Part shown: positions 47,781 through 54,538 of the stretch, one piece after another
Position numbering within the stretch: position 1 is the first letter of the stretch
Layout: each line of letters starts with the position of its first letter
Assembly: GCA_902812365.1 (NCBI GenBank)
Contig: CADDZC010000009.1
Location: 1 to 64,000 of the forward strand
Reading direction: 5' to 3'
Length of the DNA stretch: 64,000 nucleotides
Origin: Acidobacteriota bacterium
GTDB lineage: Bacteria; Acidobacteriota; Terriglobia; UBA7540
Position numbers and translations under genes: made by a program
Notes under the pieces: model-generated
What the model was told of the DNA's origin: nothing
Databases searched by the model: none
Seen by the model: only the letters and a program-made list of their open reading frames with translations

Positions 47781-48473
47781 CTAGGAAGGAAACAGCTCCG
47801 GGAACATCCGGCGATAAATGGACATGCCGAGCGCCGCGTGCATGCCGAGCTCGTCCAGGGCGCGGATTTCATCCTCGGTCGTGATCCCGCCGGCGGCCGT
47901 GATCGGCAACCGGGTTACGGCGCGCAAGGAGCGGAACCAATCGAGGCGCGTCCCCTGCAGGCGGCCTTCCGCGTCGATACAGGTGCAGAGAAATTCGGAG
48001 CAGTAGGGCTCAAGCTGGGGCAGCGCTTCGCCGGAGGTCAGCGGCAGGATTTGGCTCCAGCCTCGAATGGCGACGCAATCATTCCAGCAATCCACCGCGA
48101 TCATCAGCCTCTCGCGCGGCAGAGCCCGAGCCAGGGCGCGAAGAAACGCATGGTTGACGCCTTGCGGCGTAAATGCCGCGCTGCCCACGATCACCTTGGA
48201 GGCGCCGTCGTTGGCCACTTCGACGGCCCGCTCGACGCTGCGAATGCCCCCTCCCACCCGGCAGCGCTTGCGGCCGCACAACTGCCGGATAATATCCGCC
48301 TGCCCGGCGCGGCCCATGGCCGCGTCCAAATCGATTACCTGCAGCTCGGGATACGCGGCGAATTTCTCGAGCACCGCGAGCGCGTCCGGCAACTCCAGAG
48401 CCTTGCGATTCTCATTGCCTTGGATGAGCTGCACGACCTTCCGGCCGAGCAGATCGATGCACGGTATCATCAT
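47781..48473 (-). CDS. hisA: HisA isomerase (phosphoribosylformimino-AICAR ribotide isomerase)
   Basis: TIM-barrel isomerase of histidine synthesis, 230 residues, slightly shorter than the usual 240-245. The N-terminal MMIPCIDLLGRKVVQLIQG holds the first catalytic Asp; LQVIDLDAAMG, CRVGGGIRSVERAVEV, SKVIVGSAAF and IAVDCWND (second Asp region) follow, then TCIDAEGRLQGTRLDWFRSL and ITAAGGITTEDEIRAL. It is a divergent HisA. It is the last gene of the his operon, 12 bases after hisF. HisA rather than HisF is supported by the separate, clear HisF next door. Confidence 0.88.
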   Translation of the reverse strand: MMIPCIDLLGRKVVQLIQGNENRKALELPDALAVLEKFAAYPELQVIDLDAAMGRAGQADIIRQLCGRKRCRVGGGIRSVERAVEVANDGASKVIVGSAAFTPQGVNHAFLRALARALPRERLMIAVDCWNDCVAIRGWSQILPLTSGEALPQLEPYCSEFLCTCIDAEGRLQGTRLDWFRSLRAVTRLPITAAGGITTEDEIRALDELGMHAALGMSIYRRMFPELFPS

Positions 48474-48485
48474 GGCGGCACCGCG

Positions 48486-49289
48486 TTAACCCGCGACGAT
48501 TCTCACCGGCACGCCGTGGGTCTGTAAATATTGCTTGAGAGTCCCTAGGGTCTGCCCTTCGTAATGGAAGATCGAGGCGGCCAGGGCGGCGTCGGCCGCG
48601 CCCCGCTCGAAGACCTCCACAAAATGCGCCGGATTCCCCGCTCCTCCCGAGGCGATCACGGGAATCTGCACGGCGCGCGAGACGGCCGCCGTCAGCTCGC
48701 AATCAAAACCGGCCTCGGTGCCGTCGGCGTCCATCGACGTCAGCAGAATCTCGCCGGCTCCCAGCTCTTCCACGCGCCGCGCCCAGGCGACCGCGTCCCA
48801 TCCCGTCTCCCGCGTCCCCCCATAGGTCATCACCTGCCAGGCCGTTCGCCCGATCTCCGCCCCTTCCCGCCCTTGGGCCAGCGGTCCCGTTCGCCGCGCA
48901 TCGATAGCCACCACAATGGCTTGCCGGCCGAAAGCGGCCGCCAGTTCGCTGACCAGGGCCGGCGATTCCACGGCTGCCGTGTTCACCGACACCTTGTCGG
49001 CTCCGGCGGCGAGCAGGCGGCGCGCATCGTCCACCGTGCGAACTCCGCCGCCGACCGTCAGGGGAATGAAGAGCCGGCGCGCCACACACCGGACGGTCTC
49101 CATCAGCGTGGCGCGCCCCTGCCGGGAAGCCGAAATATCCAGCATCACGAGCTCATCGGCTCCCTCGCGGTTGTACAGGTCGGCGAGTTCGCCCGGATCG
49201 CCCGCATCGCGCAGACCCTCGAACCGCACGCCCTTGACGACGCGCCCGTCCTGACAATCCAGGCACGGAATGATCCGTTTCGCCAGCAT
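48486..49289 (-). CDS. hisF: Imidazole glycerol phosphate synthase, cyclase subunit
   Basis: HisF, 267 residues, the TIM-barrel cyclase that uses ammonia from HisH to make IGP and AICAR. Typical: [22 protein letters not shown] (Asp11), [52 protein letters not shown] (second Asp), [13 protein letters not shown] and [13 protein letters not shown]. Start ATG 49289 was taken because homology begins there; the longer frame to 49616 overlaps hisH. It follows hisH by 29 bases. Confidence 0.96.
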
Positions 49290-49318: not shown

Positions 49319-49912
49319 TCAGGAGGCCAGAAAGTTCTGCAGCACCCTCAACCCCACCTCTCCCGACTTTTCGGGATGAAACTGCACGGCCCACAGCGCC
49401 CCCCGCTCGACGGCCGCCGCGTACGGCCCGCCGTAGTCGGTCAGCGCCGCCGTTTCGGCGGTGACGGGCGCGTAGTAGGAGTGGCAGTAGTAGACGAAGC
49501 TGCCGTTCGCCACGCCCTCCAACAGCCGGCTCCCTCCCCGAATCTCCAGTTGGTTCCAGCCCACCTGCGGCACCTTCCCCGGGCCGGTAAACCGCCTTAC
49601 CGTACCCGCAAGCCACCCCAGCCCCGCCACCGCCGGAGCCTCCTCGCTGGATTCATAGAGCGCCTGCAGGCCCAAACAGATCCCCAAGTACGGGGTGCCG
49701 CGCCCGAGCGCCTCCCGGAGCGGCTCGATCATCCCGCGCCGGCCCAGTTCCCCCATCATGGCCCCAAAATGTCCCTGCCCGGGCAGAATGATCTTGTCGG
49801 CGCCGGCCAGGAGCTTGGCGCTGCCGGCAATCTCGGCCGGGTAGCCCAAATAGGCGATGGCCTTGAGCACCGAACCCACATTGCCGGCACCGTAGTCGAT
49901 GACGACGGTCAC
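49319..49912 (-). CDS. hisH: Imidazole glycerol phosphate synthase, glutaminase subunit
   Basis: HisH, 197 residues, class I glutamine amidotransferase. Catalytic triad: Cys79 in [11 protein letters not shown], His179 and Glu181 in [10 protein letters not shown]. The N-terminal [16 protein letters not shown] and the oxyanion strand region [11 protein letters not shown] fit the family. It overlaps the hisB stop by 4 bases, so translation is probably coupled. Confidence 0.96.
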
Positions 49913-50502
49913 AGGAGCCCCTTGGTACTGGGGAGTTGGCGTTTCAGCCGCGCGTCCCGCGAGCAGGCATACCGCAGCGCCCGCGCAAACGCCTTGAAGA
50001 TCGCCTCCACCTGGTGGTGGCTCGAACGCCCGTATAACACCCGCAGGTGGAGGTTCGCTCCGGCGTGGGAAGCGAACCCCTGGAAGAAATCCTCGAGCAG
50101 CTCCGCCTCCAGGTCTCCTACCCGGCGGGCCTTGAGCCGGGTCTCGATCACCAGGTGGGGGCGCCCGCTCAAATCCACGGCCACCACGGCCAGCGTCTCA
50201 TCCATCGGCATCACGAAGTAGCCGGCGCGGTTGATGCCCCGCTTGTCTCCGAGGGCCTGGCGCACCGCCTCGCCCAGCACGATGCCGACGTCCTCGACCG
50301 TGTGGTGCTGATCCACGTCCAAGTCGCCGCGCGCTTCCAGTTCCAGATCAAAGGCGCCGTGGCGGGTGAACAGTTCAAGCATATGGTCGAGGAATCGGAT
50401 GCCGGTCGAGATCTGATACCGGCCCCGGCCATCCAGACTCAGCCGGAGGCGGATGTCCGTTTCCGCCGTCCGCCGGTGCACCTGGGCTTCGCGAGCTCTC
50501 AT
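49909..50502 (-). CDS. hisB: Imidazoleglycerol-phosphate dehydratase
   Basis: Single-domain HisB dehydratase, 197 residues. Metal-binding motifs: [33 protein letters not shown] and the C-terminal [33 protein letters not shown] (in part). It lacks the histidinol-phosphatase domain of the enterobacterial fused HisB, so that step needs a separate enzyme outside this window. The start ATG 50502 overlaps the hisC stop as ATGA; the longer ORF to 50544 lies inside hisC. Confidence 0.96.
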
Positions 50503-51629
50503 ACCCAAACCGCCGGCGGCGAGTGCCGGATCAAATCCATCCACGCCGCCCGACCCTTCCCCGGTTCCATAACCGGCAGCAGCGGCTTCCAGGCGCGCGC
50601 CAGGCGCCGCATCTGGGCCTCGGTGCCGACGGTCACCCGGAGATAACCGCGCAGCCGCCGATCGTGGCTCCAGTCGCGCACCAGGATGCCTTGCGCGCGC
50701 AGCCGGCGGGCGATCTCCGGGCCGCGCGCTCCGACCCGCACCAGGACAAAGTTGGCGGCGCTCGGCGCATAGGCCAGTCCCATCTCGGTCAGCGTGCGGC
50801 AGAACGCCTCGCGGTTCGCGCGCACCTGCCGGGCGTACTGGCGCACTTCCTTGTCATGCCGGATCGCTTCCACCGCGCAGGCGGCGGCGACCGAGTTGAC
50901 CGCATACACCGCGTGCGCCCGGCGCAGCCAGCCCGCCAAACGAGCGTTGGCAAACAGAAAGCCCAGGCGCAAACCCGCCAGTCCGAAAGCCTTCGAGAAG
51001 GTGCGGGACACCACCAGGTTCGGGTAGCGCCGAATCCAGGGCAGGATCGTCTGGCCCGAAAAATCGAAATAAGCCTCATCCACCAGCACCAGCGTATCCG
51101 GCGCCGCCAGCAGCAGGGCGCGCAAATCGGACTTGGGGATCAAGGTTCCGGTCGGATTATTGGGATTCGCCAGCGCCATCCAGCGCGGCCGCCGGCCGAG
51201 AACGGCCCTCATCTTCCCGACGTCCAGGCGCAGCCCCGCGTCGTAATCATAGCGCACCACGGCCGTCCGCCCTCCGGCCACGGCGTGGAAAAACTGGTAG
51301 ATGGCAAAGGTCGGCGTGGGCGTCACCAGCACGTCCCCGGGCTCGACGAAGACGTCGCAGATCAGCTTGATCGCATCGTCGACTCCGTTGGTGATCAACA
51401 TTTCCTCCGGCGCCACGCCGAAATAGCGGGCCAGAATCCGGCGCGCCCGGCCGTATTCCGGGTAGAGCGAAAACCACTCCGGGCGGAGGGTTCGGCGAAG
51501 AAAGCTGACGATGCCGGCCGGGCACCCGACCGTGTTTTCGTTAAAATCCAGACGGAGTTTTCCGGCCCGCCCTTCCTCGGGCGGGTAGTACTTCGGCAGC
51601 CGTTCGATCAGCGGGCGCGGGCGGAGCAT
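50499..51629 (-). CDS. hisC: Histidinol-phosphate aminotransferase
   Basis: PLP aminotransferase of histidine synthesis, 376 residues. [13 protein letters not shown] at the N-terminus, [40 protein letters not shown] and the PLP-lysine block [17 protein letters not shown] are the HisC signature. The true start is ATG 51629, overlapping the hisD stop as TGATG. A much longer open frame extends upstream to 52592 through hisD in another frame and is a shadow. Confidence 0.95.
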
Positions 51630-52900
51630 CAGCCTTCCTCCGAGCTCAACCGGATTTCGATCGAATGCGCGTGCGCCCTCAAGCCCTCCGCCCGGGCCAG
51701 GGTCACAATCGCCCGGCGCAGCCGTTTGAGCCCCCGCCGCGTCACCCTCTGCACGCTGATGGACTTCACAAAATCGGCGGCGCTCAGCCCACCGTGCAGC
51801 CGCGCGGCTCCTGCGGTGGGGAGGATGTGATTCGGGCCCGAGGCGTAGTCTCCGGCCGCCACGGCGCTGTAATCGCCCAGAAAGATGGAGCCGGCGGCGC
51901 GAACGCGGCCAAGCATCCGGCGGGCGCCGCCGAGCAAGGTGAGATGTTCGGGGGCGAAACGGTTGGCCAGCTCGACGGCGGCGGCAAGATCGCGGGTGAG
52001 AATAACAGCGCCTTGCCGCGAGAGCGATTCGCGCGCCACCGGCAACGCGAGCCGTTCGAGCAGGGCGGCGGCCGCGGAGCGCACCTGCCGCGCCAGCCCG
52101 AGCGAGGGCGTGATGAGGATGGCCAGCGCGTCGGCGTCGTGTTCGGCTTGGGCCACCAGGTCCGCGGCGATCCACCGCGGTTCGCCCTCTTCCCCCACCA
52201 TCACCAGCTCGGTCGGCCCGGCGAGAAAGTCGATTCCGCATTCCCCGGCCACCAACTGTTTCGCCGCCGCCACGTAACGATTGCCCGGGCCGACGATCTT
52301 GTCGGCGCGAGGCACGCTCTCGGTCCCGTAGGCAAAGGCGGCGATGGCCTGCGCGCCTCCCAAGCGGAAGATTTTCCGCACCCCGAGCACATCGGCGGCC
52401 ACCAGCACCGCCGCCGCCGGACGGGGCGAGGTCACTATCACCTCGCTCACCCCAGCGACTTGCGCCGGAATCACGCTCATTAACACCGTGGACGGCAGCG
52501 GAAAACGCCCCCCCGGAACATAGCAGGCCACCCGCTCGAGCGGCCGAACCACGGCGGCCACTTCCACCCCCTCGAGCGTCTGGCCCCGCCACGGGCGGGG
52601 CAACTGCCGCCGGGCCACGGCGCGAATATTGCGGGCTGCCAGCTCGACGGCCGCCACAAAGCCGCGGGGAACCTGCCCGTAGGCGGCGGCAATTTCGCGG
52701 CCGCTGACCGTGAAACCCGACTCTCGCAGGTCCAACCGGTCAAATTTCCGCGCATAGCGGCAGAGCGCCCCGTCGCCCTCGCGCCGAACATCGTCCACAA
52801 TGCGGCGCGCCACCACCAGAGCCTCCCCCAGACGCGCGGCCCGCGCCTCGAGCAGGCGGTCGAGGGCTTTCCGGTCGGTACTGCGAATGATCTCCAGCAT
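51629..52900 (-). CDS. hisD: Histidinol dehydrogenase
   Basis: Zinc enzyme oxidising L-histidinol to histidine in two NAD-dependent steps, 423 residues. Visible: CYVPGGRFPLPSTVLMSVIPA, FRLGGAQAIAAFAYG, DKIVGPGNRYVAAAKQ, DFLAGPTELVMV, AQAEHDADALAILIT, APEHLTL (zinc region), GDYASGPNHILPTAG and a C-terminal EGLRAHAHSIEIRL. It lies 50 bases after hisG. Confidence 0.96.
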   Translation of the reverse strand: MLEIIRSTDRKALDRLLEARAARLGEALVVARRIVDDVRREGDGALCRYARKFDRLDLRESGFTVSGREIAAAYGQVPRGFVAAVELAARNIRAVARRQLPRPWRGQTLEGVEVAAVVRPLERVACYVPGGRFPLPSTVLMSVIPAQVAGVSEVIVTSPRPAAAVLVAADVLGVRKIFRLGGAQAIAAFAYGTESVPRADKIVGPGNRYVAAAKQLVAGECGIDFLAGPTELVMVGEEGEPRWIAADLVAQAEHDADALAILITPSLGLARQVRSAAAALLERLALPVARESLSRQGAVILTRDLAAAVELANRFAPEHLTLLGGARRMLGRVRAAGSIFLGDYSAVAAGDYASGPNHILPTAGAARLHGGLSAADFVKSISVQRVTRRGLKRLRRAIVTLARAEGLRAHAHSIEIRLSSEEG

Positions 52901-52950: not shown

Positions 52951-53820
52951 TTACATCACAATCTTGTTCAGCGGATACTCGACGATTCCTTGGGCCTTGG
53001 CCGCCTTGAGGCGCGGAATAATCTCCCGCACCGTCTTTTCATCAATCACCGTGTTGACGGCCACCCAGTCGGATTCACTCAAGTCCGAAATGGTCGGGCG
53101 CTTGAGGGCGGGAAGTACGGCGAGCACCTGGTTCAAGTCTTGGCGCTTCACGTTGAGCATCAGACCCACTTTGCCGGAAGCCTCGATGGCCCCCTGGAGC
53201 AGCATCACCAAGGTTTCCATCTTCCGGCGCTTCGCCGAATCGTTCCAAGCCGCGTGGCTGGCGACGAACTTGGTGTTGGATTCGAGCACGGTTTCGACAA
53301 TCCGCAGGCCGTTGGCGCGCAGCGAAGAGCCGGTCTCGGTCACTTCCACGATCGCGTCGGCCAGCACCGGAGGCTTCACCTCCGTCGCGCCCCAGGAAAA
53401 CTCCACCTTTGCCCGCACCCCGTTCCGAGCCAGATACTGCTCGGTCACCTTCACCAGTTCCGTGGCCACCGTCTTCCCTTCCAGATCCTGGACGCTCTGG
53501 ATGGGGGATTTCTCCGGGGCCGCGAGCACCCATCGCACCTTGTTCATAGTCTGCTTGGAATAGATCAGGTCGGCCACCTCCACCAGATCGGCGCCGCTTT
53601 CGAGAATCCAGTCCTTGCCCGTCAGCCCGCAGTCCAGAATCTCGTCTTCAATGTAACGCGCCATCTCCTGGGCACGAATCAACATGCACTCGATCTCCTC
53701 ATCGTCGATGTGAGGGAAGTAGGAGCGCGGGTTTACGGTGATCTCGTACCCGGCCTTGCGGAACAACTGCAGCGAAGCTTCCTGCAGGCTGCCTTTCGGT
53801 ATCCCCAGCTTAAGTTTCAT
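52951..53820 (-). CDS. hisG: ATP phosphoribosyltransferase, long form HisG
   Basis: First committed enzyme of histidine synthesis, 289 residues, the long form with a C-terminal regulatory domain (about 215-289) that binds histidine; no HisZ is needed. Catalytic part: [35 protein letters not shown] (in part), [18 protein letters not shown], and the PRPP loop segment [25 protein letters not shown] lies 4 bases before ATG 53820. It is the second gene of the operon after hisI, so flux may be controlled by both feedback inhibition and attenuation. Confidence 0.96.
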
Positions 53821-53921: not shown

Positions 53922-54296
53922 TCACTTCTTGTACACTTCGCCGGGATCAAAGCGGCGCGGCGCGACGACTTGCTCGCCCTCGGGGCTGACGCGCCGGAAA
54001 AAACACGATTCATACCCCAGGTGGCAGCAGCCCGGTCCGGCCAACTCGGCCTGGATGAGGAGCGCGTCCTGATCGCAATCCACCCGCACCTCGCGCACCT
54101 TGAGCCGGTGGCCGGAGGTTTCTCCTTTGGTCCACAGCTGCTGCCGGCTGCGGCTGAAAAAGGTCACAAAGCCGGAGCTGAGGGTTCGCTCGTAGGCTTC
54201 CGCGTTCATGTAACCGAGCATCAGCACCTTGCCGGTCTGCTGATCCTGGATAATCGCCGGCACCAGACCGTCTTGGAATTTCAATTCCATGTTCAA
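53922..54296 (-). CDS. hisI: Phosphoribosyl-AMP cyclohydrolase
   Basis: Stand-alone HisI, 124 residues. Signature: [50 protein letters not shown] (in part), [13 protein letters not shown] and zinc-binding cysteines in [16 protein letters not shown]. No HisE (phosphoribosyl-ATP pyrophosphatase) domain is attached. TTG 54296 has AAGGA 6 bases upstream; ATG 54290 is the alternative start. It is the first structural gene behind the histidine attenuator, an unusual first position. Confidence 0.94.
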
Positions 54297-54360
54297 CCAA
54301 TATCCTTTTCCGTCCCGCCGCTCTCCGCTCCTGCGCGCCTGGCAAAGCGTCTGAAAAACT

Positions 54361-54391
54361 AAAAAGCCCGCCGGCCATCGCCAGCGGGCTT
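54361..54391 (-). terminator. his operon attenuator terminator (segments 3 and 4)
   Basis: On the minus strand, AAGCCCGCTGGC pairs with GCCGGCGGGCTT around a GATG tetraloop, a 12-bp stem with one G-T wobble, followed by TTTTTAGTTTTT. The T-run exists only on the minus strand, so it acts on transcripts entering hisI, about 65 bases before its start. Confidence 0.9.
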
Positions 54392-54485
54392 CCTTTCGGT
54401 TGCAACTCGATTTCGGCTTAGGCCCTCGCCCGCTGGCACACCTGGGCAGCGCTCTCGTGATGGGGATGGCCGGAATGTGCCAGCG
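54381..54485 (-). promoter_or_regulatory. his attenuator alternative pairings (segments 1, 2 and 3)
   Basis: Segment 1, CGCTGGCACA (54476-54485), pairs perfectly with TGTGCCAGCG in segment 2 (54428-54440). Segment 2 also contains CCAGCGGGC, the exact complement of GCCCGCTGG in segment 3 (54381-54389). So 1:2 leaves 3:4 free to terminate, while a ribosome stalled over segment 1 lets 2:3 form and blocks the terminator. Confidence 0.88.
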
Positions 54486-54495
54486 CGTAAGCCAT
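54418..54495 (-). CDS. hisL: his operon leader peptide
   Basis: A 25-codon ORF reading [13 protein letters not shown] and ending [12 protein letters not shown]. Four of seven residues at positions 7-13 are His (CAT, CAT, CAT, CAC). It begins about 8 bases after the expected transcript start. Its His codons directly follow segment 1, and its stop codon lies 7 bases beyond segment 2, exactly where a terminating ribosome would mask segment 2. It has no obvious Shine-Dalgarno, so its translation may be from a nearly leaderless 5' end. Confidence 0.88.
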
Positions 54496-54508
54496 AAGCT
54501 GAAGGCTC

Positions 54509-54538
54509 AGTATAGAGCAGCTCCCCCTGGCCTGTCAA
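54509..54538 (-). promoter_or_regulatory. his operon promoter
   Basis: On the minus strand, a perfect TTGACA (54533-54538), 18-base spacer and TATACT (54509-54514), five of six. Transcription would start near 54502, 7-8 bases before the leader peptide ATG. Confidence 0.8.

Follow-up and report, generated by a model that had tools for sequence, protein, structure and literature searches.

A putative ribosome-mediated attenuator of the histidine operon in Acidobacteriota

Described histidine leaders and the element upstream of hisI

Attenuators were reportedly the subject of a broad survey by Lopatovskaya et al. in 2010. In E. coli and Salmonella, as at the locus described here, a short leader with a cluster of His codons and an alternative antiterminator and terminator lie before the his operon (PMC9413887); Rfam describes this proteobacterial His leader as RF00514. 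Ribosome-mediated his attenuation is known from Proteobacteria and, computationally, from some Firmicutes (PMC9413887, PMC2965389). The Firmicutes candidates (hisS/hisZ of bacilli; Peptostreptococcaceae; Erysipelotrichales) resemble the present element in their His-rich leader, terminator and antiterminator, all recognized by comparative genomics, but they belong to another phylum, concern partly other genes and are scattered in few lineages (PMC2965389, PMC9413887). Another ribosome-mediated attenuator leader peptide, trpL of Sinorhizobium meliloti, is encoded by an RNA that begins with its ATG (PMC7298713); it differs from the element described here in that it senses tryptophan, controls trpE(G) and is found in Alphaproteobacteria. 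In Actinobacteria, no conserved RNA structure was reported upstream of his operons (PMC1262725), and for Acidobacteriota attenuators have been predicted with almost no assigned function (PMC2965389). We found no published case of his attenuation for Acidobacteriota in the open-access literature, of which coverage was incomplete, and in this respect the initial annotation, which was aware of none, still stands.

We analysed a 64,000-nucleotide stretch of DNA from a soil acidobacterium, referred to as the window. The element occupies positions 54538-54354 of its minus strand, immediately 5' of a hisI-G-D-C-B-H-F-A operon. It combines a promoter and a His-rich leader of 25 codons with an intrinsic terminator and three helices (1:2, 2:3 and 3:4) that exclude one another. 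The genes 3' of it encode the histidine pathway, namely hisI, G, D, C, B, H, F and a hisA-like gene. The features are as follows.

54533..54538, minus strand: -35 box TTGACA (from sequence; TTGAC(A) stands at the matching place in nearly all family members)
54509..54514, minus strand: -10 box TATACT (from sequence; 18-nt spacer to the -35 box)
54496..54502, minus strand: predicted 5' UTR of ~7 nt (TCAGCTT) without a Shine-Dalgarno site (placed from the -10 position)
54418..54495, minus strand: histidine leader peptide hisL, 25 codons, 4 His (sequence and comparison)
54474..54485, minus strand: segment 1, CGCTGGCACATT, partner of segment 2
54428..54442, minus strand: segment 2, GGTGTGCCAGCGGGC, partner of segment 1 or segment 3
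54380..54389, minus strand: segment 3, GCCCGCTGGC, antiterminator arm and 5' terminator arm
54366..54375, minus strand: segment 4, GCCGGCGGGC, 3' terminator arm
54354..54365, minus strand: U-tract of the intrinsic terminator, TTTTTAGTTTTT (from sequence)
53922..54290, minus strand: hisI, first structural gene, start at 54290 (NCBIfam NF000768, above cut-off)
52951..53820, minus strand: hisG (TIGR00070)
51629..52900, minus strand: hisD (TIGR00069)
50499..51629, minus strand: hisC, start overlapping the hisD stop (TIGR01141)
49909..50544, minus strand: hisB (NF002111)
49319..49912, minus strand: hisH (TIGR01855)
48486..49289, minus strand: hisF (TIGR00735)
47781..48473, minus strand: hisA-like gene (best NCBIfam match TIGR00007, E 2e-41, 142 bits, below the cut-off of 229)

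The hisL frame runs from an ATG at 54495 to a TAA at 54420-54418, with His at residues 7, 10, 12 and 13. The 1:2 helix joins CGCTGGCACATT (54485-54474) to GGTGTGCCAGCG (54442-54431) in 12 bp, of which 10 are Watson-Crick and 2 are G-U, and the 2:3 helix joins GCCAGCGGGC (54437-54428) to GCCCGCTGGC (54389-54380) in 10 perfect bp. The 3:4 helix, GCCCGCTGGC with GCCGGCGGGC, has a 10-bp GC-rich core that includes one G-U and is extended by A-U pairs, and TTTTTAGTTTTT follows it. The initial annotation had described a complete his attenuator oriented into hisI, with a promoter and a 25-codon leader carrying His at these four residues; every one of these elements is present on the minus strand where it had been placed. 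Its pairings hold as well, and only their lengths required revision, from 10 bp for 1:2, 9 bp for 2:3 and 12 bp for the 3:4 terminator to the values given above.

A single-sequence fold of the element was only mildly unusual against shuffles (z = -2.0), so that comparison across relatives was needed. By that comparison, which supplies the proof, the element is not a product of chance and stands far above it. No second copy was found in the same genome. An Rfam scan of the window at default and permissive settings gave no gathering-level match, including to RF00514 and the T-box models; a weak match to sraL (22 bits vs 39) looks like one arising by chance from the terminator. Unlike the E. coli and Salmonella attenuator, the acidobacterial element thus has no match to the RF00514 covariance model. 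It also precedes a hisI-first rather than a hisG-first operon, and it differs in its near-leaderless start, its often interrupted His codons and its three compact helices.

Conservation, pairing and modelled ribosome geometry in the gp13-like family

HisI was searched in 60 relatives of the window genome. The nearest named genomes are gp13 acidobacteria, which agrees with the earlier assignment to a probable acidobacterium. A short leader lies 5' of hisI in 28/28 relatives of the same family or order that were fetched with upstream sequence (typical examples are MRRALAHHHHHSSPVTCQRPPA and MLRALAHHHHHHHFSFGVTCQWANA). The conserved C-terminus of the leader, CQW or CQR, is RNA segment 2 spelled as codons, and the His codons CAT and CAC are used alike. 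In two leaders (L018 and L029) the His cluster is degenerate, but the frame and pairing segments persist. It had been set beforehand that close relatives without the His run or the pairings would count against an attenuator; no such loss was seen, and both are retained in the family. At one locus (L015:1291-1445), a TAG replaces the conserved TGG after TGT-CAG, and the peptide ends inside segment 2 with the pairings retained.

We aligned the window and its 28 relatives in 29 rows (alignment A1). A column-stack scan of A1 returned 1:2 (9 columns), 2:3 (12) and 3:4 (10) as the only stacks of at least 9 columns; beyond these there were a single weak stack of 5 columns (61-65 with 154-158) and two stacks in nearly all-gap columns. 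For 1:2 and 3:4, 95.8% of cells were paired, compared to 30-43% when the segments were slid, and for 2:3 the corresponding values were 96.6% and 32-43%; over the three helices, paired cells amounted to 94-98%. Double (compensatory) changes were seen at 5 pairs in 1:2/3:4 and 2 pairs in 2:3, and 2:3 covariation was barely above shuffles. Their scarcity reflects the need of segments 2 and 3 to fit two partners each. Gaps in the leader columns were multiples of three in 26/26 cases (3, 6 or 9 nt), and those after the stop codon were of all lengths. The features under strong conservation are the His frame and the three helices, with a mutually exclusive antiterminator (2:3) and terminator (3:4) in the gp13-like family and weaker counterparts in other families.

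In the window, the His codons lie over and just 3' of segment 1, the stop codon comes after segment 2, and segment 2 itself is out of reach of a ribosome stalled at those codons. This layout matches that of a textbook attenuator. For modelling, the ribosome was assumed to cover 18 nt upstream and 12 nt downstream of its A-site codon. In the gp13-like leaders, segment 2 then stays uncovered during a stall on nearly every His codon and is covered once the ribosome is at the stop; this geometry fits 27/28 of these leaders. A modelled partial transcript in which the ribosome occupies the second His codon and the polymerase has just passed segment 3 is predicted to fold as 2:3, and one with the ribosome at the stop as 3:4. 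In simulated stalls, the leader tail paired with arm 3 by a mean of 12-13 pairs, compared to 8-9 for shuffled tails; the test discriminates only moderately, since shuffled tails reach at least 8 pairs with arm 3 in 58-71% of cases.

Distribution of His leaders across Acidobacteriota

A covariance model of A1 detected clear relatives 5' of hisI-hisG in several other families. Many weak matches in other classes did not precede his genes and were left unused. A second, independent survey used HisG and covered the upstream DNA of 120 operons. A His cluster was scored where any 8 residues encoded in the 400 nt before hisI included at least 4 His; by this measure, 78/83 surveyed Acidobacteriota operons had one. 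The controls gave 0/83 on the antisense strand, 14/4150 in dinucleotide shuffles and 0/70 in hisI upstream regions of other phyla. In the HisG survey, His-cluster leaders occurred in families f10 (41/41), f33, f24, f55, f67, f5, f53, f93, f42, f71 and f84, and also before a second operon type with a divergent HisG (f14, f26, f54 and f76 among others). Several of the leader-bearing families fall outside the class of the window. The leader was absent in f29 (4/4), f37 (11/12 genomes), f51, f62 and f70.

A GC-rich hairpin and a T-run followed 113/121 leaders, mostly 20-41 nt past the stop. As an ungapped helix, 2:3 beat 95% of shuffles in 70/113 leaders and 1:2 did so in 27/113. Outside the gp13-like family the 1:2 helix is often undetectable, and in families other than this one and f10 the ungapped 2:3 helix frequently spans few pairs. 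In f10 leaders the stop codon lies ~23 nt beyond segment 2, so that a ribosome at the stop covering segment 2 is not transferable unchanged and the details of the terminating state must differ.

The lineage extension suggested by the initial annotation thus gains support, with a His run and terminator in most of the phylum. Ribosome-mediated his attenuation is a mechanism class already known in its classical form; what is new, judging from these genomes, is probably its phylum-wide occurrence in Acidobacteriota, where, in contrast to the Firmicutes candidates, most surveyed his operons carry the leader. This would bring leader-peptide control of histidine synthesis to a large, mostly uncultured soil phylum and would imply transcription-translation coupling in it. 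The element is also a strong candidate for a new RNA family, and it draws attention to a kind of short gene that is often overlooked by annotation pipelines.

Three observations concern individual genomes. The f29 genomes (L186, L209, L183 and L198) are without a leader 5' of hisI, yet have the same HisG type. L124 (G385) is the sole one of the 12 f37 genomes with a His leader, located 5' of hisI-hisG; with 8% contamination listed for this assembly, the contig may have been binned wrongly. In L036 (JAJUHR010000040.1, labelled Planctomycetota), HisI is 61% identical to that of the window, higher than in other phyla, and a His leader is absent; transfer or mislabelling is possible.

Proposed mechanism, leader initiation and alternatives

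We propose that the element is very probably a ribosome-mediated transcription attenuator of the histidine operon. A leader reading frame with clustered His codons is present, and an intrinsic terminator lies between it and the first structural gene. Sequence and comparison show the parts and how they are conserved, as well as the geometry and the mutual exclusion of the pairings; from these, ribosome stalling and a response to histidine are predicted. RNA polymerase would start a few bases 5' of the leader ATG, and a ribosome would begin translation at the 5' end or close to it, with no Shine-Dalgarno site. When charged tRNA-His is scarce, this ribosome would stall on the clustered His codons and cover segment 1, allowing the 2:3 antiterminator to pair and the polymerase to read into hisI-G-D-C-B-H-F-A. 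With sufficient histidine, the ribosome would reach the stop just past segment 2 and cover that segment, so that the 3:4 terminator forms and the polymerase does not reach hisI. If the leader were not translated, 1:2 and 3:4 would form and transcription would end as well.

Two alternatives dispense with attenuation by a translating ribosome. The leader could be a conserved small His-rich protein, for example a metal-binding one, with its own terminator; its frame is indeed conserved, and a terminator alone would end a small transcript. Throughout the survey, however, the peptide precedes his biosynthesis genes, and its His positions shift while the cluster is retained. The tail codons follow the RNA pairings in the gp13-like family, and segments 2 and 3 pair better than chance, all of which makes a small protein very improbable. 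Slightly less probable still is that a T-box, riboswitch or RNA-binding protein reads the element and the short frame is incidental. The his genes of other phyla are controlled by T-boxes or the HisR repressor (PMC9413887), but no Rfam family reached threshold in the window, and strong conservation falls on the His frame and the three helices.

A further alternative accepts attenuation and concerns only how the leader is translated, namely from a longer transcript with a promoter further upstream, and not leaderless. A second TTGACA at about 54560 would allow this, and the transcription start of the window element is itself predicted from the -10 position. There are 13 nt between the -10 box and the ATG in the window, which makes it near-leaderless, and gaps of 9-16 nt are common in the gp13-like family to which the window belongs. 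Such gaps can be read in favour of a longer transcript; taken with the promoter as placed, they imply a 5' UTR only a few nt long, too short to hold a Shine-Dalgarno site. Across the survey, by contrast, a promoter-like pair (score of at least 8 of 12 within 70 nt upstream of the leader) was found for 104/121 leaders, compared to 8.4% when shuffled. For 72/104 leaders with a recognisable promoter, 8-10 nt separate the end of the -10 box from the start codon, which points to leaderless translation, and Shine-Dalgarno-like matches of at least 5 nt occur in just 6/121. We therefore regard a longer transcript as unlikely, although distinctly less so than the two alternatives above.

As a group, the leaders show the layout expected of leaderless mRNAs, with the -10 box some 10 nt from the start codon and, in most cases, no Shine-Dalgarno site. 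Zheng et al. took a similar -10 spacing as a sign of leaderless genes, for which their estimate averaged 13.3% in three Acidobacteria (PMC3160421). These data suggest that the leader is initiated leaderless from a transcription start close to its ATG. The initial annotation had considered a start so near the 5' end, without a binding site, to be unusual. The predicted arrangement is conserved; it is less unusual than thought, because leaderless genes make up an estimated ~13% in Acidobacteria (PMC3160421) and the S. meliloti trpL RNA likewise starts at its ATG (PMC7298713). More tentatively, and with somewhat less than even confidence, we suggest that the his attenuator is ancestral in Acidobacteriota and leaderless by selection, in that initiation at the 5' end would load the first ribosome as the AUG emerges and so set the timing between ribosome and polymerase. 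If so, the sensor would depend on leaderless initiation across the whole phylum. The leaders may form a natural set of leaderless sensors in which to ask whether leaderless initiation is tuned for coupling.

Leaders for other amino acids were also considered. Among 11 genomes checked at trp and branched-chain genes we found no Trp leader; the Trp-Trp frames that precede trpE in L256 and L258 look like the tail of the preceding gene rather than leaders. A candidate branched-chain leader, MHITDPNQALRNKRVVSHALILVVQVVVLIIGVGVTGLA, lies ~235 nt upstream of ilvB in one f5 genome (L269, G048) and was not seen in the other 10 genomes checked. A hairpin (CCACTGGGCGAGGG...CCCTCGACAGTGG) and a T-rich stretch come after this candidate.
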